Positions 2,350 to 63,335 of a DNA stretch of 64,000 nucleotides are shown here, piece after piece. The position numbers and the translations under genes were made by a program. The stretch is from a virus, in IMG/VR virus record IMGVR_UViG_3300037882_002578, positions 62,001 to 126,000 of that record; one strand, written 5' to 3'. The notes beneath the pieces were generated by a model. That model saw nothing but the letters and a program-made list of their open reading frames with translations. It was not told where the DNA came from and ran no database searches. The stretch's first letter is position 1; each line of letters starts with the position of its first letter.

Positions 2350-5190
2350 ATGGCAAACTTTCTCTCAGAAAAACAACAATATAATAAGATAATTGACCCT
2401 GTTAACATTAACTTAGTCAATACAGTACTTTCAGCAAAACAAGGAAAATTTGACCAAGGAGTTGCCGCAATTGACTCTGCTTTAGGAGAGCTAGGACGTA
2501 TTGATGGAATGCTTTTAAGAGACAAAGATAGAGAATATTTAGCTAATAATGTAAAAAGTTTATTAGACGTAGTTAATAATAGTGGCAAGTTAGACTTATC
2601 TAAGTCAGGTGTAACTAGAAATATTCAAAGTCAAATAAAGTCTGCTTTAGATTCAACAGTTATTAATGCTGTAGCTCAAAGCAGTAAGATTAGAACTTTT
2701 CAGTCTGAAATAGCAGACAAACAAAAAAATAAACCTGAATTATATTCTGACGATAACTATCAATATGCATTAAAAAATGCAGGAGTTCAGAGCTACTTGA
2801 ATGGAGAGACAGAAGAAGTAGGGACTTTAAGATACGATGATTATATTGACGCACAAAAAGTTTTAGATGAATCTGTAGCTAAATGGGCTAAAGATTTTGG
2901 ATACAAAACAGAGTTTAAATCAGGAGATACAAGTCAACTAATATATGCTAATGAAGAAAAGAAAGTCCTTTCTAAGAACGATATTATAAATAAATTAAAA
3001 ACGAGTTTAGACCCAAAGATATCAAAGCAGTTACAAATTAATTCAGATGCTTACTACAGCAAAAGACCCGAAGGGCAAATTTTAACAGATGCAACTAATT
3101 ACTATAACAAACAAAACTCTGAAATAGATGTGAAACTTTTAGGAATAAAAGCGGAAAAAACTAGTGCATCAACATCAAGAAAAGTAGAATTAGAAAATGA
3201 TGAAAAGTACTACACAGACTTAAAAAAAGAAAATTCTAAAAAACTAGAAGATAAAGATTTTGACAACATTTATCAAAAGTATGAAATATACACTACAAAC
3301 TTATTTGATAACATAGCAGATAACTATGATAGAGACGAGGTAGTAGATATTAAGTACAATGATAGTAATTTAAAGATAGCTCAATTCAATTCAGATATAG
3401 AGTACAAGCAAGCCACTTTAAGACAAGGGCAAGAAAGAATAGACATAGCTAAACAACAAGCTAGAGCAGCAGATACAGCCAACATGATTGTTTCAGGAGG
3501 AAGTATAACAGATACTCCAGACCAAACAGCAGGAGAAAAAACAAATTCACAAAAAGCTTTAGAAAAACATAATTCAGACTTTAATGAATTAAAAGCTGTT
3601 CTTGAAGCTTCGGATGAAAACTTTAGAGATTTAAATACAGAACAACAAAAAGAAGATTACATAAAAAACTTAGCAAGCGTAAAAGGCTCTGTAAGTATTA
3701 ACAACGACTCTTTAAATCCAGAAGCTAGAGAAAAATTAGAGGTTTACAAAAATTCTTTGAACGTAATTAAGTCAACTAGACAAAACATAGCAAACAAAGT
3801 AGGAAATTCAATAATTGAAAATTATAATAATTTGCTAGGCAGTAGTACTAACTTTAGTAATCTTGCAAAAACAGCACCTTTAGCAGCAAACGCAGCTTCA
3901 AAAGGAGTACCTCTAACTAAATTACCTAAAGCTGATGTAGCTGCAATAAAACATGAAATAGCTGTAAACTCTTTAAACTTTGACGGCACATTAAGCCCAG
4001 AAGAAAGAAGCACCTTAAAAACTTATGTCAGAAACCTAGAACAACAACCTTACTTAACTCCTGCACAATCAAAAGCTATGAGAAGTAAAGATAAAGATGA
4101 AGTAGGTTATTTTGCAGGTACAGGCGACCTAATATCAGGTACACTTAAAGCATGGGGTTCTAGCCTAGTTTACGGAGGAGAAAGATTTATAAATTCAGTT
4201 ACAAACAATTCTAGTAAGAATGTTCAGGCAGAACAGGATTATAAAAACAGAAATAAAACAATAGTAAACCAACTTAATAGAGGTTGGGATAGAATGGAAA
4301 AAAGCAGACTGGATAAAGATATAACTAGCGAAGATACAAACTATACAGAATTAGATACAGGAGATTTAAAACCAACAGCTAAGTTAGGTTTTAGTGAGGC
4401 AGTAAAAAATGCAATTAGAAACGCAACAACTAACTCAGAAGACAGTTATAAAAAAATAGTTCAGGATACTAAAAATTTAAGAAGCATATCTTTTAACCCA
4501 GAAAATAAAAGTCAAGCAGGTATAACTCAAGCTATAAAAACTCAGTTGTCTGCAGTAAGTGAAACACCTGTAGAAATAGAAAAAGGGAGTATATTTGAAA
4601 CTGTACTAGCTAGTGACGGAAAGAATATAAACATAACTTACATTCCAAAAGGAGAAACTGAAAAAGTAGTAAGAACAATACCAGCAGAAAGTTTACCAGT
4701 TTTAAGTCAAGATTTAACAGATAAATCAGTACCTTTTATAAACAGTAAACTAAACAGAAACGCTCCTCCTAGAAGATTGACTTATGAAACTCCAAGAGAC
4801 TCAAAATCAAGAGAAGATTTGCTTTACAACATTTATAACATGTATGGAGAACAAATCCTACCTCAAAAAGAGTTAATAAAACAAGTTCAAACAGGGCAAG
4901 ATATTCCTACTCAAATAGAGATGAGAGCTATTGCAGAAAAAACTCCACCTGAAGTAGCAACACAAATAAACAAATTAGCCGAAGAAGTCTTTGACGTAAT
5001 TTGGACACCAACAGGAAGCGGATGGAGAGCCACAGCAGTAGATTCAAATAATAATCCTATAACTTTAGAGGGAAGACAAGTAGAGAAAGTAATCCCAAGG
5101 GATTATAATGAAGGAGCTATGAAATTAGAAGCTATGGGATTAATAAATCAATATAAAGTTTTAAAAATAAAACAGTTAATAACAGAATAG
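2350..5190 (+). CDS. Large virion-associated protein (946 aa)
   Basis: Long, mostly helical, Asn/Lys/Ser-rich protein without a recognisable enzyme motif. The N-terminus (MANFLSEKQQYNKII) and heptad-like spacing suggest an elongated coiled-coil virion or internal protein. There is no signal peptide. It follows the 751-aa gene by 68 nt and its stop is one nt from the next start (ATAGTATGG), so the three large genes form one late operon. Assignment as a structural or ejected protein rests on size, position and strand only. Confidence 0.75.
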   Translation: MANFLSEKQQYNKIIDPVNINLVNTVLSAKQGKFDQGVAAIDSALGELGRIDGMLLRDKDREYLANNVKSLLDVVNNSGKLDLSKSGVTRNIQSQIKSALDSTVINAVAQSSKIRTFQSEIADKQKNKPELYSDDNYQYALKNAGVQSYLNGETEEVGTLRYDDYIDAQKVLDESVAKWAKDFGYKTEFKSGDTSQLIYANEEKKVLSKNDIINKLKTSLDPKISKQLQINSDAYYSKRPEGQILTDATNYYNKQNSEIDVKLLGIKAEKTSASTSRKVELENDEKYYTDLKKENSKKLEDKDFDNIYQKYEIYTTNLFDNIADNYDRDEVVDIKYNDSNLKIAQFNSDIEYKQATLRQGQERIDIAKQQARAADTANMIVSGGSITDTPDQTAGEKTNSQKALEKHNSDFNELKAVLEASDENFRDLNTEQQKEDYIKNLASVKGSVSINNDSLNPEAREKLEVYKNSLNVIKSTRQNIANKVGNSIIENYNNLLGSSTNFSNLAKTAPLAANAASKGVPLTKLPKADVAAIKHEIAVNSLNFDGTLSPEERSTLKTYVRNLEQQPYLTPAQSKAMRSKDKDEVGYFAGTGDLISGTLKAWGSSLVYGGERFINSVTNNSSKNVQAEQDYKNRNKTIVNQLNRGWDRMEKSRLDKDITSEDTNYTELDTGDLKPTAKLGFSEAVKNAIRNATTNSEDSYKKIVQDTKNLRSISFNPENKSQAGITQAIKTQLSAVSETPVEIEKGSIFETVLASDGKNINITYIPKGETEKVVRTIPAESLPVLSQDLTDKSVPFINSKLNRNAPPRRLTYETPRDSKSREDLLYNIYNMYGEQILPQKELIKQVQTGQDIPTQIEMRAIAEKTPPEVATQINKLAEEVFDVIWTPTGSGWRATAVDSNNNPITLEGRQVEKVIPRDYNEGAMKLEAMGLINQYKVLKIKQLITE

Positions 5191-55323: not shown

Positions 55324-55587
55324 TTAATCTATTAATTCGAAATCTGTTATTTGTTTGATAATTGGTTTAACAATCTGAACTGAGTGTACAAACTCATTGT
55401 CACCATAACTGTCAGTTCTTAAAACCAACTTTATATGTAAATTATCCTGCCCTAAAGAGTAAATTTCAGTAGTTTCAGAGTAGTCATATTCATTGTCTAC
55501 TGTATTAGTAGTAATTTTTGAAAACCTGTGATTATATCTTAGTTTAGGTATATCATTCAATGCCTCATTAATTAATTTGTAACTCAT
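55324..55587 (-). CDS. Hypothetical protein (87 aa)
   Basis: Starts MSYKLINEALNDIPKLRYN. Beta-rich single domain (LHIKLVLRTDSYGDNEFV). Overlaps the upstream nucleotidyltransferase-like gene by 20 nt. Function unknown. Confidence 0.6.
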   Translation of the reverse strand: MSYKLINEALNDIPKLRYNHRFSKITTNTVDNEYDYSETTEIYSLGQDNLHIKLVLRTDSYGDNEFVHSVQIVKPIIKQITDFELID

Positions 55588-56290
55588 TTTCTATTTTTGT
55601 TTTAAAGTTATATTTTGGTTTTTCTAAGTGTTTGTAGTTTTCTATTGCGAAAATTGATATGTAAAAAGGAAAGTGTTTTATAATATTATCTTTTAATTGC
55701 CTTTTATAAGATACTCTATAGTTTAATTTTGAATACCTCTCCCAAGCCATTACAGCAGTTTCTTCAAAAACTACATCACATTTTTCTTCAAAAGAAAGCG
55801 CATACCATTTATTTTCATCCAACTCTACTTCACACCCTTCTTTTAAAAGCTGAGTATAGGCAGGGTTACATTCTAAAAGGGTATGTAAGTAGTCATGCTG
55901 TTCTGTAGACATATTTACATTATTAGTAAAAAAATCCTGTTTGTTTGACTCTAAGTTACTCCGTCTTATTTTTGGTAGTGTATTTTCCCAATAAGAACGA
56001 AGCTTTAAGATTAAATTTAAGTCATACTTGCACCCCTTACTTATTAAAAACTGAACATCAAATAAATGTTTTTCCCAATTATTATCCCAAAATAAATGAG
56101 ATATTTTTAAAGAGAGCATTAAATCAGGCTTTAAATATCCTTCATTTTGATATTCTAATATTATAGGGTTGACTAGGAATTCAGTGTGCCCTTCTCTCCT
56201 TTTTGCCTGTAAAACAACAATATCTAAGTCTTTAGGGTCTCTTGGAAAATCTAAAAAGTAATGTTTTATAGCGGTTGAACCTATTACCAT
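55568..56290 (-). CDS. Nucleotidyltransferase-like protein
   Basis: 240 aa. Opens MVIGSTAIKHYFLDFPRDPKDLDIVVL: G-S followed by D-x-D, the catalytic signature of the polymerase-beta-type nucleotidyltransferase fold. HLFDVQFLISKG could provide the third acidic residue. The remaining 150 residues are helical. Related phage proteins are annotated as putative nucleotidyltransferases without known substrate. One base from the upstream membrane-protein gene. Confidence 0.7.
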   Translation of the reverse strand: MVIGSTAIKHYFLDFPRDPKDLDIVVLQAKRREGHTEFLVNPIILEYQNEGYLKPDLMLSLKISHLFWDNNWEKHLFDVQFLISKGCKYDLNLILKLRSYWENTLPKIRRSNLESNKQDFFTNNVNMSTEQHDYLHTLLECNPAYTQLLKEGCEVELDENKWYALSFEEKCDVVFEETAVMAWERYSKLNYRVSYKRQLKDNIIKHFPFYISIFAIENYKHLEKPKYNFKTKIENELQIN

Positions 56291-56533: not shown

Positions 56534-56565
56534 CAAATATAAGACATTAATATCTTTTTACATAA
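56534..56565 (-). promoter_or_regulatory. Probable promoter
   Basis: Minus strand TATATTTG (56541-56534) with TTAT at the -33 position. It lies 21 nt upstream of the ATG at 56513. Confidence 0.55.
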
Positions 56566-56768
56566 TTTTGAGCCAAATATCTTTCTATATATTTTCCATT
56601 GCTATCCCACCAAAGTCGTTGTCTTTCTCTTTCGGCTTCTCTTATAGGTTCTCCTCTATCATAATCATCACAAGATTTACATTGATTTGTTTCTAAGTTA
56701 AATCCTTCGCTTATAGACCATTCGTTGTTGCAAAATGAACACTCTCTTTGTAGATTTATATCTTCCAT
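56547..56768 (-). CDS. Zinc-finger-like protein (73 aa)
   Basis: CSFC and CKSC separated by about 20 residues (RECSFCNNEWSISEGF...QCKSCDD) form a four-Cys zinc ribbon. The rest is an Arg/Glu-rich helix (IREAERERQRLWW). It starts just after a GGCG motif and the terminator-like end of the structured region. Confidence 0.65.
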   Translation of the reverse strand: MEDINLQRECSFCNNEWSISEGFNLETNQCKSCDDYDRGEPIREAERERQRLWWDSNGKYIERYLAQNYVKRY

Positions 56769-56780
56769 ATTTTAAACTTT

Positions 56781-56792
56781 TTTGCGCCGAAA
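56781..56792. promoter_or_regulatory. TTTCGSCGAAA-type motif
   Basis: On the minus strand ATTTCGGCGCAAA between the T run of the structured RNA and the ATG at 56768, the only sequence available as a start signal for that gene. Confidence 0.45.
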
Positions 56793-56800
56793 TAAAAAAT

Positions 56801-56887
56801 AAAGAAACAGCAACCATAGGCGGATTCTACTGATTTAATCTAAGGTATGTTAACCGCTAAAGTGTAACCTTAAATAACTGTTTCTTT
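56801..56887 (-). terminator. Long hairpin closed by a 10-bp stem, terminator-like
   Basis: AAAGAAACAG (minus, 56887-56878) pairs perfectly with CTGTTTCTTT (56810-56801) and is followed by ATTTTTTATTT. The 67-nt interior contains further complementary arms (AGCGG/CCGCC, AAGGT/ACCTT). It closes the structured non-coding region. Confidence 0.65.
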
Positions 56888-56912
56888 AAATATAAAGTGA
56901 CTGATAACTTTA

Positions 56913-57035
56913 GGAAAATGGCAGGGATTGAACCTACATACGTCACGCTGAGTAACCAACAACTCATAGCTTATAAAGCTAAGGGAATTGAACCCTTGCA
57001 AACGCCACTACCATACCAGTGTGTAAACATTTTCC
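56913..57035 (-). ncRNA. tRNA-like element with two elbows sharing one helix
   Basis: 123 nt. Outer stem GGAAAATG/CATTTTCC (8 bp). Two T-arms with canonical loops: AAGGG-TTCAATT-CCCTT (56997-56981) and GTAGG-TTCAATC-CCTGC (56937-56921). Two D-arm-like hairpins with 8-nt loops containing GG: CACT/AGTG (57021-57006) and GAGT/ACTC (56965-56950). A second acceptor-like stem AGCTT/AAGCT (56980-56968) abuts the first T-arm. The linkers GCGTTTGC (57005-56998) and GCGTGACGT (56948-56940) pair over 8 bp with one bulge, in the place of an anticodon stem. Hand-built model only. Confidence 0.5.
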
Positions 57036-57530
57036 TTTTTGATATATGTTTGTTGCCATATATCAGAGCTTCCGAGATTTAACCTATCTCGCTGAGGTTT
57101 AATAAACAGAATAGATGCCTAGGTATTATTGAGGCACACTTTAATAACTTCCATACTATTCTATCTATTTAAAATTAACAGACTTCAATTAAGCAACCAC
57201 ACTCGGTATCTTTTATGAGCAGGTGAATAAAACCATAAGTTTAAACGACCTTGTGGACAAAAGGAGACTCGACTTCCCTTACCAATCCCTGCCTCAAGAA
57301 TTACCTTGTGCAGTACATATTGCCCGTTTAAAAAGTAATAAGACATAGATAAGTTCCTGCGATGGAAGACACTACCTTTTACCCACCACATCCGTTAACA
57401 CTGTTCGGAATCTGCGCTATTAAGCCTAGTGACAGTTATTACTTTAATATCGAATGTTCGACCACTTGTCATCTTCGGTAGCTCTCACAAGTAATATGTT
57501 ACTAAAATTGTGAGTCGAATCTTCTATTTT

Positions 57531-57962
57531 TTATTCTCCTAGATATTGAAATACTTCTACAATTTTAGTTTCAGAAACAGCAGGAATTGAATAATCAGAA
57601 ACTGTACCTTTTAATGTAGCAATTGTGTTGTCATAAGCTTCTCTAGCACTATTTGCTTGTACTAACATATATATATTTTGTTTCTTTTCCTTGCCACTAT
57701 TTTCGTCGTAAACTAAAAGTGAAATCTTAGATTTAAACCATACATCAGTATCTTCAAAAGCAGCAATTTCTGAGTAATTTGTTAGTTTAATATTTACTAC
57801 TCTAAAATCCTCTCCAACATAAACCTTCATTTGCTCATTAATGTTACTCTCGGCTTCACTAAAAGATAAGGCACTTACAATGTAAGATTCTGTCACTACT
57901 TTATTAACTCCTTGTTCGTCTGTTTTTCTGTGTTTTACACAGCATTCAAAAAATTTATTCAT
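57531..57962 (-). CDS. DUF4494 family protein
   Basis: 143 aa. Starts MNKFFECCVKHRKTDEQG, then SYIVSALSFSEAESNINEQM, ISEIAAFEDTDVWFKSKI-like strand (EIAAFEDTDVWFKSKISLL) and QNIYMLVQANSAREAYDNTI, the layout of DUF4494, a family common in Bacteroidetes and their phages, with no known function. It is followed directly by the structured non-coding region. Confidence 0.8.
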   Translation of the reverse strand: MNKFFECCVKHRKTDEQGVNKVVTESYIVSALSFSEAESNINEQMKVYVGEDFRVVNIKLTNYSEIAAFEDTDVWFKSKISLLVYDENSGKEKKQNIYMLVQANSAREAYDNTIATLKGTVSDYSIPAVSETKIVEVFQYLGE

Positions 57963-59009: not shown

Positions 59010-59794
59010 TATTTTTCGTATGTAGTTACAACACTTGAAATTCTTTTAGCTGTATCTATTAACATATTATGAGTCTCTTTTAATCTTTCTTCTGTCCAAG
59101 AATAAGGTTCATACCAAATTCTTTCCCCTATTGACAAAGATTTTCTCCCACCCCCATTCATACACTCTTTACCACCAAACCTTTCAATGATACAGTATTC
59201 TGCACTTTCCACTTCTAAGCCAACTTGTCGTTTACCTAAAATATAAATTTCTATTTGATGTTTTTTAAGGTCATGTAAATCTTTTTTAGAACTCTCTGAT
59301 TTTGTTTTATAGTCACGAAGTAACTTAATTTTACTACCTACTTCTTTTGTTCTATCATCCACATAACCTAAAACTATAATATCAAGCTCTTCAATATAGT
59401 AACAAATTTCATCTTGAAATACACCTAAAGGTTTAATTGTATCTAATACATCTTTTTCTTTATCTGTAAAATTTACTAAAGCGTCTTCTAATTCTTTTCT
59501 AACTTTTAACTCAAGTTTTTGTAACTCTTTTTTAGGTAAGTTTCTTAGAGTAATGTAAGCCTCTGTTTCTGAGCCAAATTGCCCCCAACCAAAATCTCCG
59601 AAATTAATATTAGATAGTTTATTTAATATCCATTCGTACTCTCCTAATAAACCTGTGTTAAAACCTGATTTATCATTAAAAGACTCACAAGTAGACCAAC
59701 TTATATAGTTTTTACCTATAAACTTTTTATGCTCTTTTCTTGAACCCCCTCTTTTCCAGGTATCTTCACTATATAATCCTACTAAGTTTAACAT
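58991..59794 (-). CDS. PD-(D/E)XK nuclease, RecB/Cas4-like
   Basis: 267 aa. SWSTCESF near the N-terminus, then the core VLGYVDDRTK and IKLLRDYKTKSE (D...D-x-K), and KKHQIEIYILGK (Q-x3-Y), the order found in RecB-family and Cas4-like nucleases. No four-Cys iron-sulfur cluster is evident. Likely a DNA exonuclease for recombination, repair or host DNA breakdown; genes of this kind are usual in crAss-like phages. Overlaps the exonuclease gene upstream by 7 nt. Confidence 0.85.
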   Translation of the reverse strand: MLNLVGLYSEDTWKRGGSRKEHKKFIGKNYISWSTCESFNDKSGFNTGLLGEYEWILNKLSNINFGDFGWGQFGSETEAYITLRNLPKKELQKLELKVRKELEDALVNFTDKEKDVLDTIKPLGVFQDEICYYIEELDIIVLGYVDDRTKEVGSKIKLLRDYKTKSESSKKDLHDLKKHQIEIYILGKRQVGLEVESAEYCIIERFGGKECMNGGGRKSLSIGERIWYEPYSWTEERLKETHNMLIDTAKRISSVVTTYEKYLHNKK

Positions 59795-60738
59795 AAACTA
59801 TCTATAAATTCGTTAATTTCTTGCTCTTTTTGTTTTTTTACTGCAACTTTATCCTTTTTTTGTTGATAATGAGCAATTAAAATCTTTTTTAAATTAGCTT
59901 TGTCTTCTTCTGTTGGGTCTTTTATTAATCCCTTTACTTGATTTTTAATTTCTTCGGTAAAAGCTCCGCTTGTATAAATACGTTGTAATAGTGGTAGTTC
60001 TTCTATAAAAGGTTCAAATTTTGTGTTTTCATTTTTATCAATAAATGTCTCAAATGGTTCTTCAAAACGCATTTTTTTGAATATGTTAATATTTGCAAAT
60101 ACATCTTGTTTTACGTATTTATTTATTTTTTCCAATCCATTTTTCCAATACTCCTCTGAAATTTGACTCCCATCTATCTCTGTTTTAGGTGATGGTAAAT
60201 CAAAATGATAACACATTTCGTCTACCGATGTATTCGCATAATGTGTGCCACGAAATATATCCATTAAGTCTAAACATCTATCTAAGTTCCAGGGCTTTTT
60301 TCCTGACGTAATAAATCGGTCTACAAGATTTGAAGTTACATCAAAATACTTCATTCCATTTACAGCTACTACGGGTAAATCATAACCTAAAATGTTTGCG
60401 CCAGCTACATAATCAAAAGAGTTTGCTATAGTACAAAATTGTCTTAATATGCTTTCTTCATCTCCTTCTAAAGCTTTAATGTGGACTACATTGTCTTTAA
60501 TAAAGCCAACACCCACAGATACAACTTTCATATAGCACATTTTTAATGCTCCATTTCTATTATATTGTTCTAAAACTTCTTCTTGAGGTAATAACTCATC
60601 TGTTTCTCTATTTCTAGTTTTTTTTTGAAACAGTTCAAACTCCTTAGAGTTTACATCTAATTCTTTGTTTTTACGTACAACTTTTAAATCAAAGAACAGT
60701 ACACTTTCTTGATTAACTTTTTTGATTGTTTGATTCAT
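59788..60738 (-). CDS. DnaQ/PolB-exo2-like 3'-5' exonuclease, motif I altered
   Basis: 316 aa. Motif I reads VLFFDLKVV where F-D-x-E is expected, so the second acidic residue is a Lys. Motif II ANILGYDLPVV and motif III KYVKQDVFANINI are intact, and MKVVSVGVGFI fits between. The layout resembles the predicted PolB-like exonuclease family (DNA_pol_B_exo2). The missing Glu may impair metal binding. C-terminus is a basic, coiled-coil-like helix. Its start overlaps the end of the upstream homing endonuclease by 26 nt; an internal Met is far downstream, so this start is kept. Confidence 0.75.
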   Translation of the reverse strand: MNQTIKKVNQESVLFFDLKVVRKNKELDVNSKEFELFQKKTRNRETDELLPQEEVLEQYNRNGALKMCYMKVVSVGVGFIKDNVVHIKALEGDEESILRQFCTIANSFDYVAGANILGYDLPVVAVNGMKYFDVTSNLVDRFITSGKKPWNLDRCLDLMDIFRGTHYANTSVDEMCYHFDLPSPKTEIDGSQISEEYWKNGLEKINKYVKQDVFANINIFKKMRFEEPFETFIDKNENTKFEPFIEELPLLQRIYTSGAFTEEIKNQVKGLIKDPTEEDKANLKKILIAHYQQKKDKVAVKKQKEQEINEFIDSLC

Positions 60739-61340: not shown

Positions 61341-61763
61341 TTAATAAGCTAATGTAGTTCTACTTTGTTCTAATTCAGGTAAAAATTCTTTTACTATCTC
61401 TCTACATTTTTGTTCATCTTGAAGCAAGAAGGATGAGGCGACATTACTAACCGAGTGGGTGTAATAAGAATCGTAGAAACTAAACGGTGAGTTATTAAAC
61501 CAATAGTAGTATTTTTTTTGGCTGTCATCATTCATATCAGGCTTCCAACCATTATTCTTATAAGCCACAATCATAATCTCTTTTTGAAGATACTTCAAAT
61601 GTAATGGCAAATTTTTATAATCTTTTTCAAATTGTTCTTCCGTTGTATTATGGTATTTATATACTTTTTGCATAGCATTTTGACTTTCAATTTGCTTTAA
61701 CTGTTCCTTTGTAAGATTAATTTCTACCTCTTTTCCGTTGATATTAATTTTGATTGTTTTCAT
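61341..61763 (-). CDS. DGR variable protein 1 (C-type-lectin-like C-terminus)
   Basis: 140 aa. N-terminal strand-helix MKTIKININGKEVEINLTKEQ is shared with variable protein 2. The C-terminal half has GWKPDMNDDSQKKYYYWF followed by the variable segment FSFYDSYYTHSVSNVASS, as in small Bacteroidetes DGR targets that end in a C-type lectin fold. The variable codons sit at 61428-61485. The gene overlaps the end of the reverse transcriptase gene by 20 nt, so the two are co-expressed. Role: diversified binding protein; ligand unknown. No signal peptide or membrane helix seen. Confidence 0.85.
   Translation of the reverse strand: MKTIKININGKEVEINLTKEQLKQIESQNAMQKVYKYHNTTEEQFEKDYKNLPLHLKYLQKEIMIVAYKNNGWKPDMNDDSQKKYYYWFNNSPFSFYDSYYTHSVSNVASSFLLQDEQKCREIVKEFLPELEQSRTTLAY
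61428..61485 (-). repeat. DGR variable repeat VR1
   Basis: 58 nt aligned to the template repeat at 62795-62852. In the 47-nt core (61434-61480) there are 8 differences, every one at a template adenine (T on the plus strand). Three further differences, at the two ends, are at other bases, where homology fades. Confidence 0.9.
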
Positions 61764-62682
61764 GTATTTTTCTTAAATTTATTGAGTTACAGTGGACTAA
61801 CCAAGAGTTCCATCTTTCTTTGTTTTTACTTCTTTTGTAATTTTGTTTTATGCTTTTCCTTAATAGTGTGTAGTCTTTTCTATGAACAAAGCCAACAAAA
61901 TCAACCCCTCTATCTTCTACAGGAAATATTTGATAAGTGTGCTTTATTTCTAATTTTAATGTTTTTAAATAAGAACTTATTTTACTTAATATTAAATGCA
62001 GTTCTTTTTTATCATTAGATAAAATTACTATATCATCCATGTAACGCCACACATACCTTACTTTTAATTCTTGCTTTATGTAGTGGTCTAAATAACATAA
62101 ATAAAAATTAGCCAAATACTGACTTATAAGTGAACCAAGTGGAAGTCCTATAGGATTAGAATCTATAATATTATCTAATAAATTTAATAAATCTTTATCC
62201 TTGAACTTTTTTCTCAGCATCAACTTTAAAATATCATGGTCTACATTTTTATAAAACTTTTTAATATCTAATTTTAAACAGTTTTTATTATAATTTTCAT
62301 CTTGTAATGCTTTTCTTAAGCTATAAGATGCTTTACAAATACCTCTACCTTTTATACAACTGTAGGTATTTTTGTTAAATACCTTAACTAGTATTTCACC
62401 TATTTGTAATATAATTGCGTGGTGTAATATTCTGTCAGGGTAGTAAGGTAATCTTGAAATAGTTCTATGCTTAGGCTTTAATATTTCAAAGCTACTATAT
62501 TCAGAAGTCTTAAACTGCCTATGATTTAACAACTCATGTAAATTATTTATATTTTCAACTTCGTTTTCTATATGTTTATTAATACCAAATTGACCAATTT
62601 TTCCTTTTCTAGCAATTTTATCAGCTTTTTGCAAATTTTCAACACTTATTATTTTAGTATATAAATTTGATTTACATTTCAT
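61744..62682 (-). CDS. DGR reverse transcriptase
   Basis: 312 aa, a single RT domain. KPKHRTISRLPYYPDRILHH (N-terminal RT motifs), LKLDIKKFYKNVDHD (motif A Asp139), GLPLGSLISQYLANFY (DGR-type motif with SQ), VWRYMDDIVIL (catalytic YMDD, residues 214-217) and VDFVGFVHRKDY. There is no maturase or endonuclease domain, which argues against a group II intron RT. It copies the template-repeat RNA with adenine-specific errors that are then transferred to the variable repeats. It lies between the template and variable gene 1. No Avd-type accessory gene is visible. Confidence 0.93.
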   Translation of the reverse strand: MKCKSNLYTKIISVENLQKADKIARKGKIGQFGINKHIENEVENINNLHELLNHRQFKTSEYSSFEILKPKHRTISRLPYYPDRILHHAIILQIGEILVKVFNKNTYSCIKGRGICKASYSLRKALQDENYNKNCLKLDIKKFYKNVDHDILKLMLRKKFKDKDLLNLLDNIIDSNPIGLPLGSLISQYLANFYLCYLDHYIKQELKVRYVWRYMDDIVILSNDKKELHLILSKISSYLKTLKLEIKHTYQIFPVEDRGVDFVGFVHRKDYTLLRKSIKQNYKRSKNKERWNSWLVHCNSINLRKIHENNQN

Positions 62683-62885: not shown

Positions 62886-63335
62886 TTAATACATTAATCG
62901 TTTACAAATAGCTAAATAATTTTTATTATTACCTGCTGAGTTTGCTAATTTTTCTGTTTTGAAGGAGAGTGACGAGGCGACATCACTATCCGAGCCGTAG
63001 CAATTAGAACAGTCGAAACGAAAGTTATTATTTAAATAATACCAATTTCTCCATTTTTTTTCAGAATTGTTATTCCAATCAAAGATGTGTTTTTCATTTA
63101 AGGCTCTATTTATACAAACTGCTTCCTGATTAGCTAAGATTCTATCAGAAATATCTACTTTTTGCAACTGTCTTAAATTACTCACTTCTAAGTCATCCTC
63201 TCCAAGATAATCTATACAATCTTGTAAAGTACACGTTGAAGCATCTAATTGTTTTTGTTTGTTTATTTGAGCTAGTTGCTCTTTGGTTAAAGTGATTTCT
63301 ACATCTTTACCATTAATTTGAATTGTTGTTTTCAT
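62886..63335 (-). CDS. DGR variable protein 2 (C-type-lectin-like C-terminus)
   Basis: 149 aa. N-terminus MKTTIQINGKDVEITLTKEQ matches variable protein 1. The middle is helical (residues 30-90). The C-terminal part holds WNNNSEKKWRNWYYLNNNF, then the variable stretch FRFDCSNCYGSDSDVASS, then SFKTEKLANSAG, the usual ending of DGR lectin-fold targets in Bacteroidetes. First gene of the cassette, 24 nt below a consensus promoter. The ligand is unknown, and no export signal is visible, so whether it acts inside the cell, on the virion or after lysis is open. Confidence 0.87.
   Translation of the reverse strand: MKTTIQINGKDVEITLTKEQLAQINKQKQLDASTCTLQDCIDYLGEDDLEVSNLRQLQKVDISDRILANQEAVCINRALNEKHIFDWNNNSEKKWRNWYYLNNNFRFDCSNCYGSDSDVASSLSFKTEKLANSAGNNKNYLAICKRLMY
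62967..63024 (-). repeat. DGR variable repeat VR2
   Basis: 58 nt aligned without gaps to the template repeat. There are 11 differences and all 11 are at template adenines (coding strand). Homology stops at both ends of the 58 nt. Confidence 0.93.

Follow-up and report, generated by a model that had tools for sequence, protein, structure and literature searches.

A predicted phage RNA with two tRNA-type T-arms within one acceptor-like helix

INTRODUCTION

In circularly permuted tRNA genes, the parts of the molecule follow each other in the order T-arm, acceptor, and D-arm, and the precursors of permuted tmRNA have the same order of T-arm, acceptor, and D-arm. Both tmRNA and permuted tmRNA possess a tRNA-like domain without an anticodon arm. 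It is also already known that phage tRNA clusters contain tRNA-like and stable RNAs, namely, rnaC and rnaD of T4.

tRNA genes with their halves in reversed order are mentioned in the accessible part of PMC10085705, and the term "permuted tmRNA" occurs in the accessible part of one phage paper (PMC9004378). According to the accessible text of PMC4810234, one and the same motif serves RNase P, the L1 stalk, and T-boxes in recognizing the tRNA elbow, and some viruses employ tRNA decoys that include mimics of the elbow. The accessible literature on tRNA-like, permuted, and decoy phage RNAs, on the T4 stable RNAs, and on permuted tmRNA yielded no phage RNA with two T-arms, and there is no occurrence of phage, virus, permuted, or two T-arms in the accessible part of PMC7609411.

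Here, we report on a double-T element in a window of 64,000 nt, which is the whole stretch of DNA analyzed and corresponds to bases 62001 to 126000 of a 135,902-bp virus record. A flavobacterium is the probable host, since the ribonucleotide reductase large subunit shares 67% identity with its counterparts in the Maribacter phages Colly_1 and Molly_1 (Molycolviridae). A first-pass annotation of this DNA had proposed that the element consists of two tRNA elbows joined through a shared central helix and knew of no described RNA with this layout. As to the latter, we indeed found no matching RNA in the accessible literature; the layout is, however, not confined to this locus and recurs elsewhere.

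RESULTS

Anatomy and predicted fold of the element

The element covers about 123 nt of the minus strand (57035-56913) and lies in an intergenic stretch that we take to be noncoding, the internal open reading frames (ORFs) of 61 amino acids (plus strand) and 68 amino acids (minus strand) being taken as chance occurrences. Its parts and the neighboring genes are listed in Table 1. From 5' to 3', the order is acceptor-like helix, D-like arm, T-arm, closed acceptor-like hairpin, D-like arm, and T-arm. The MFE structure calculated with RNAfold (-35.8 kcal/mol) coincides with the fold that had been drawn by hand, and the centroid is identical. The individual arms were recovered as initially described: (i) two canonical T-arms with the loops TTCAATT and TTCAATC match the consensus exactly, (ii) two D-arm-like hairpins alternate with them, (iii) the acceptor-like outer stem consists of 8 Watson-Crick pairs and directly adjoins T2, and (iv) the second acceptor-like hairpin begins right after T1 without a spacer.

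Table 1. Features of the element and of its surroundings (positions in the window)
Feature	Position	Strand	Evidence or remark
Outer acceptor-like helix, 5' strand GGAAAAUG	57028-57035	minus	8/8 pairs with 56913-56920; probability 0.98-1.0
D-like arm 1 (D1), 5 bp, loop GUAUGG	57006-57021	minus	MFE; probability 0.86-0.90
Central helix, 5' strand GCGUUUGC	56998-57005	minus	Partner 56940-56948; probability 0.61-0.95
T-arm 1 (T1), loop UUCAAUU	56981-56997	minus	Exact consensus match; probability 0.88-0.95
Closed acceptor-like hairpin, 6 bp, 3-nt loop	56967-56981	minus	Probability 0.58-0.99
D-like arm 2 (D2), 5 bp, 8-nt loop with GG	56949-56966	minus	Probability 0.76-0.94
Central helix, 3' strand GCG-U-GACGU, one bulge	56940-56948	minus	MFE and pairing probability
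T-arm 2 (T2), loop UUCAAUC	56921-56937	minus	Exact consensus match; probability 0.96-1.0
Outer acceptor-like helix, 3' strand CAUUUUCC, CCA not encoded	56913-56920	minus	MFE
Intergenic stretch with the double-T element	56769-57530	minus	~760 nt; ORF list
DUF4494 gene, one border of the intergenic stretch	57531-57962	minus	Pfam DUF4494
73-amino-acid ORF, other border of the intergenic stretch	56547-56768	minus	ORF list
DUF7275 gene, beyond small ORFs	55568-56290	minus, same as element	Pfam
Exonuclease-like gene	59788-60738		Used to seek related loci

The lowest pairing probabilities were those of single pairs in the closed hairpin (0.58) and in the central helix (0.61), the latter of which contains a bulged U and three G-U pairs. 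The geometry departs from that of tRNA in the gap between acceptor and D1, which measures 6 nt (2 nt in tRNA), and in the D1 loop of 6 nt. The MFE had a z score of -2.5, and 6 of 200 dinucleotide shuffles were at least as stable, so that the energy by itself is just moderately unusual. The motif GGTTCAANYCC, searched on both strands, occurs without mismatch at two places in the window, both inside the element; if one mismatch is allowed, the window contains 5 in total versus 3.6 expected, and single T-like motifs are thus uninformative.

The layout at this locus exceeds chance

For the layout test, both T-arms were held fixed and the remainder was dinucleotide-shuffled to give 20,000 sequences. 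Some kind of double layout arose in 1,786 of them, and none reached the score of the element, 45.8 (best shuffle, 43.1). The presence of two elbows within one acceptor-like helix is supported by the MFE fold, by this comparison, and by other phage RNAs, including a covarying family described below.

Two ordinary tandem tRNAs were considered and rejected, because the T-arms are just 60 nt apart, because the acceptor strand of T2 pairs at 7/7 positions upstream of T1 and at 5/7 positions at best between the T-arms, and because the acceptor strand of T1 pairs with the hairpin directly following T1. The latter strand has an alternative 6-pair partner 84 nt upstream, which was taken as chance.

Comparison with models of tRNA, intron-bearing tRNA, and tmRNA

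ARAGORN detected no tRNA in the whole window in default mode and made no call there in intron mode; at standard cutoffs, there is thus neither a canonical nor an intron-containing tRNA prediction for the element. A search of the full 135,902-bp record with the tRNA model RF00005 (E up to 1) produced one match, which is the element itself, aligned to model positions 1 to 71 with 18.2 bits against a cutoff of 29. This alignment indicates that the outer half is tRNA-like and that the anticodon region is not. No tRNA above the RF00005 cutoff was present in the record. In agreement with the first-pass annotation, no 7-nt anticodon loop fitting a cloverleaf, on a 5-bp stem and with U33, was seen in the MFE structure or in the sequence by eye. 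The only 5-bp stem available as an anticodon stem would leave a variable loop of 2 nt, no position 26, and a position 33 that is not U, which makes an intron-bearing tRNA unlikely. With lowered limits, one ARAGORN run returned a poor tRNA-Thr that has different ends and three unpaired acceptor positions. Permuted tRNA genes were compared by the intervening sequence between the 3' and 5' halves of the acceptor, at the place of which the predicted fold has a 3-nt loop.

At the gathering score, no Rfam family was found over the intergenic stretch of the window. Relaxed scans of the region returned T-arm fragments of tmRNA and mascRNA along with other matches, all far under the cutoff. Matches to the tmRNA model RF00023 were limited to the surroundings of T1 (13.8 and 11.7 bits versus a cutoff of 47), and the permuted tmRNA model RF04321 had no match at the site of the element.

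Double-T layouts in other viral sequences

IMG/VR was scanned for paired T-arm cores that are spaced more closely than tandem tRNAs permit, and many phage loci were among the matches listed. The 324 viral sequences examined contained 312 distinct T-arm pairs 36 to 72 nt apart, and the 166 pairs outside ARAGORN tRNAs of less than 100 nt were kept. The enclosing-helix test required the 7 nt that follow the second T-arm to pair with a strand 26 to 66 nt upstream of the first, and for the null the acceptor strands were dealt out anew in 500 shuffles. In this set, the sequences of which are not all independent, 31 of 166 pairs had a strong enclosing helix by the stricter score (null mean, 2.4; maximum, 8) and 56 of 166 by the looser score (null mean, 12.4; maximum, 25). 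The window element, with 8/8 pairs in its outer helix, is among the 31. Leaving out the family described in the next section, 27 of 152 passed the stricter and 43 of 152 the looser score. This simpler test replaced an initial descriptor that imposed a strict rule on the hairpin and had given 30 matches against approximately 15 with swapped acceptors, the window and its copy L001 both being counted, and 24 against approximately 8 at a score of at least 32. Among the 308 T-arm pairs assessed with this initial descriptor, the window element had the top score of the 30 matches, tied solely with L001, which is a copy of the window itself. An earlier enrichment test was weaker (11 of 47 versus 3.9; null maximum, 10).

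By the enclosing-helix test alone, a double elbow cannot be told from a tRNA whose insert bears a T-arm, and some of the 31 strong-helix places are probably interrupted tRNAs. In intron mode, ARAGORN made calls whose ends nearly coincide with those of the candidate in 18 of the 56 cases. Furthermore, three double-T places (L107 1387-1499, L004 4857-4977, and L084 1406-1536) exceed the RF00005 cutoff as tRNAs with long gaps, which blurs the border to interrupted tRNAs.

A number of further arrangements were observed in these sequences. (i) L134:4219-4335 (Thr), L156:9373-9494 (Arg), and L294:498-635 (Asp) read as tRNAs interrupted after anticodon position 36; the inserts measure roughly 45 to 70 nt, each carries a T-arm, and that of L294 resembles a permuted tRNA. 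(ii) By eye, L110:408-537, L217:8301-8430, L169:294-425, and L306:8101-8223 seem to have three T-arms in one acceptor helix, and L169 seems to encode CCA. (iii) An arrangement termed family A is composed of a T-arm, a short TCG...CGA hairpin, a TGGTGAAG-like stretch, and a second T-arm, with starts 41 to 48 nt apart; it was seen in many phages (L230, L227, L161, L173, L194, L146, L148, and others), with weak matches in the Mycobacterium phages SlimJimmy and Bricole (approximately 73% over 69 nt; E, 0.1 to 0.4). (iv) L017, L069, and L077 contain tandem mini tRNA-like units, each with one hairpin and one T-arm and apparently no D-arm.

A covarying family of RNAs with two T-arms

A conserved D-T core was present at 25 places in IMG/VR, 16 of them distinct and 15 full length (116 to 121 nt). 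This group, referred to as family B, includes L158:8196-8316, L195:10487-10606, L240:12529-12649, and 12 others. The MAFFT alignment contains two T-arms and two D-like stretches, and the order of the parts is acceptor, D, linker, T, hairpin, D, T, and acceptor. The acceptor helix spans the whole RNA; changes on both sides occur in 7/7 pairs, and 96.2% of the cells are paired (n = 15). The covariation score of the whole named structure was 0.476, versus 0.030 to 0.138 for slid controls. Pairs 1 to 4 of T1 are kept in 15/15 members, with exchanges at pairs 3 and 4, and the fifth position pairs in 3 of 15. At the position of the anticodon arm, there is a hairpin of 4 to 8 bp, closed by a GGCA tetraloop in 9 of the 15 members; in L241, the loop at this position measures 7 nt. 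The second hairpin, of 3 to 5 bp, begins a few nucleotides after T1. Judged by these alignments, family B is an RNA clearly under selection, with two T-arms and without a conserved anticodon loop.

None of the family B members in L107, L109, L180, L195, and L239 reached the Rfam cutoff (best, 28.6 versus 29), and in the scans of these five members no Rfam family for a two-T-arm RNA without an anticodon appeared. The core had no exact match in sequenced bacterial and archaeal genomes (84,980 species). ARAGORN in intron mode called 3 of 13 members, as three different isotypes, and is thus unspecific here. In five of eight loci scanned, family B was located just 5' of tRNA-Ser(UGA) and tRNA-Gln(UUG); in a separate scan of three loci, it preceded tRNA-Ser(UGA)/tRNA-Gln(UUG) in L109 and not in L107 or L111.

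Relationship of the element to family B

R1, a model built from family B, has a single match in the record (E up to 1), which extends over 56913-57034, covers the full model length (1 to 118), and has an E value of 0.0023, or 0.014 when 809 kb are searched. The alignment pairs both T-arms of the element with both T-arms of family B. The score of this match, 23.3 bits, reflects tRNA-likeness and not membership in family B, since R1 also scores ordinary tRNAs at 20 to 35 bits and one T4 tRNA-Leu at 42.1 bits. In L127, the R1 match (3003-3124) has one T-arm only.

The order of the main parts is alike in the element and in family B, whereas the sequence is different. The anticodon-arm position is occupied by a short hairpin of its own in family B and by a shared central helix made from the linkers in the element; the hairpin after T1 is short and a few nucleotides away in the former and directly adjacent in the latter. 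In addition, the family B core UAUGGUAYUANUG is absent at D2 of the element. Since the element lacks the family core and has a shared central helix in place of separate hairpins, we place it in the same layout class as family B and not in the family itself.

The central helix and the search for homologues

When the entire intergenic stretch was compared with the phage collection by blastn, no close homologue of the element emerged, and two element-specific scans found no homologue either. The neighboring genes led to further loci, three through the exonuclease-like gene and three through the DUF7275 gene, and the exact double-T pattern was present in none of these six records. What supports the central helix of the window element is its predicted energy. 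The proposal of two elbows joined through this helix agrees with the MFE structure and its pairing probabilities. It found no counterpart in an enrichment among the candidates: linker-linker complementarity was observed in 10 of 56, versus 11.9 expected. The enclosing helix and both T-arms were drawn by their own MFE in just 21 of the 56 candidates. In 10 of these 21, among them the window element, the central helix comprises 4 or more pairs. Two of these 10, L134 and L156, are likely interrupted tRNAs, so that their central helix would be the anticodon stem. Closest in anatomy is L294, with 10 linker pairs between two elbows and, by eye, an inner acceptor closed by UUCG; the MFE structure of L294 shows a different inner part, and this locus may be an interrupted tRNA-Asp.

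Genomic context and related phages

The interval from the exonuclease-like gene to the nrdB side, in which the element lies in the window, was inspected in related sequences, the gene order of which is not identical to that of the window. L123 has a tRNA-Met in this interval, L124 has a tRNA-like stretch with one T-arm and no ARAGORN call, and no such tRNA-like RNA was seen in the interval of L125. The contig L127, found via a neighboring gene, has a cluster of a tRNA-Met, a tRNA-like RNA, and a permuted tmRNA. The contents of L123, L124, and L127 point to an origin of the element from phage tRNA genes.

Several additional features of these loci are worth recording. The permuted tmRNA of the window-related phage contig L127 is located at 3132-3396 (RF04321, 58.4 bits), beside tRNA-like RNAs. 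A stretch of approximately 130 nt right after the tRNA-Met appears by eye to be conserved in two phages (L123:9183-9320 and L127:3504-3640) and had no match in an Rfam scan at the gathering score. In the window, a second stretch that is structured by eye and MFE lies just past the element on the minus strand (56801-56887); it is closed by 10 pairs (AAAGAAACAG/CUGUUUCUUU) and perhaps contains a pseudoknot. Further away, a reverse transcriptase gene (61744-62682; Pfam RVT_1) is flanked by two proteins (61341-61763 and 62886-63335) that both weakly match one and the same PHROG, and this locus is possibly a diversity-generating retroelement.

DISCUSSION

We consider the structure of the element well supported, and we see roughly even chances that it is a tRNA-derived, nondecoding double-elbow RNA, which may act as a mimic of the elbow or as a decoy. 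The outer elbow would be formed by the acceptor, D1, and T2, with an open acceptor end, and the inner one by T1, the hairpin, and D2, with the acceptor closed into a hairpin; the two would be joined at the place of the anticodon arms. Since there is no anticodon loop, the element should not decode. Such a molecule may have arisen from two tandem tRNA copies, the acceptor and anticodon strands of which pair across the copies. Its outer acceptor-T stack would be a substrate for tRNA 5' and 3' processing, by which a stable RNA could be released, and this RNA may then serve as a bivalent elbow mimic, both elbows acting together to bind or distract an elbow-recognizing host or phage factor. Candidate targets are RNase P, T-loop modifying enzymes, the ribosomal L1 stalk, and tRNA-targeting defense. 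Mimicry of the elbow or a decoy function appears to be the most likely action, to which we attach low to moderate confidence. We infer that the element is transcribed and processed, that the central helix is a conserved feature, and that the RNA has a function.

A broader reading, which we put forward tentatively, is that phages encode an undescribed multi-elbow class of RNAs, in which one acceptor helix encloses two, and at some loci three, T-arms together with D-like arms and without a conserved anticodon. These RNAs would have evolved repeatedly from tandem tRNA genes and, by mimicking the elbow in a multivalent manner, would be directed against tRNA-reading machines or tRNA-targeting defenses, the window element being a member with a shared central helix. 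The three double-T places that pass RF00005 as gapped tRNAs and the 7-nt loop of L241 weaken this reading.

The alternatives were weighed against the double-elbow reading. It is unlikely, in our view, that the element is a functionless, decaying relic of recombined tandem tRNA genes. Such an origin would agree with the lack of close homologues among the sequences searched, the many odd tRNA-like stretches in phage contigs, the absence of above-cutoff tRNAs from the record, and the different RNAs that relatives carry in the same gene interval. However, each of the two acceptor-type helices is fully paired although they are not alike, and all arms are intact, which counts against a relic since decay should have disrupted some of these parts; moreover, family B, in which the main parts follow one another in the same order, is clearly selected.

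Rather improbable is a tRNA gene with an intron in the anticodon loop, in which the inner T-arm, hairpin, and D-arm would form an insert whose removal yields a normal tRNA. L134, L156, and L294, read in intron mode as tRNA-Thr, -Arg, and -Asp with inserts after position 36, together with the 18 candidates with near-identical ends and the long-gapped RF00005 matches, speak for this possibility. The window is nevertheless left uncalled in intron mode, a mode that is itself unspecific in family B; neither the poor tRNA-Thr of one lowered-limit run nor the sole 5-bp stem yields a regular tRNA.

A comparably low probability is assigned to a leader or regulatory RNA of a neighboring transcript, the tRNA-like folds of which would steer processing or transcription. 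The element does lie in a long intergenic stretch that has genes of the same orientation downstream of it, and family B precedes the Ser and Gln tRNAs at the loci mentioned above; on the other hand, no above-cutoff tRNA is found beside the window element, promoter-like sites are below chance (1 versus 3.7), and the single terminator-like site is T2 itself. A relative of permuted tmRNA, in which the central helix would serve as P2 to the inner T-arm, closed acceptor, and D-arm, is very improbable, because RF00023 aligns only around T1, RF04321 is absent here, and 123 nt leaves no space for a tag-coding region, even though the inner order agrees with that of permuted tmRNA precursors and the related contig L127 has a permuted tmRNA adjoining the one-T-arm RNA matched by R1.

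Returning to the double-elbow reading, the occurrence of comparable arrangements in further viruses suggests that there is a group of tRNA-derived RNAs that has received little notice and takes no part in codon reading. Gene finders seek a decoding cloverleaf, and two-elbow phage RNAs without an anticodon can therefore be overlooked both within tRNA arrays and next to them. If they are real products, double-elbow RNAs would be natural probes of elbow readers in infected cells and possibly an RNA counter-defense, and the proposed origin, if true, would provide a clean case of a domain-swapped RNA from tandem tRNA genes. The covarying family B makes the idea testable at once.

A comparison with known systems delimits the element as follows. 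(i) Like tmRNA (RF00023) and permuted tmRNA (RF04321), it is devoid of an anticodon arm; unlike them, it has no model match past T1 and is too short for a tag region. (ii) Its inner half runs in the order T-arm, acceptor, and D-arm, as in circularly permuted tRNA genes, from which it differs in that the inner acceptor is closed by a 3-nt loop, has no leader or trailer, and is part of a segment nested in another tRNA-like body. (iii) The T4 stable RNAs species 1 and 2 (rnaC and rnaD) are of similar size (139 and 119 nt) and belong to a phage tRNA cluster, and rnaC shares with the element a tRNA-type T-arm and has a weak full-model R1 match (17.7 bits); rnaC has, however, one T-arm and another MFE fold, rnaD has no consensus T-arm, and identity of either with the element was ruled out on the fold. 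(iv) In contrast to canonical tRNA (RF00005), the element has two T-arms, two D-like arms, no anticodon loop, and a 6-nt linker between acceptor and D-arm, and it shares with canonical tRNA the acceptor helix beside a T-arm, the 7-nt UUCRANY loop, and a D-like arm after the acceptor strand.
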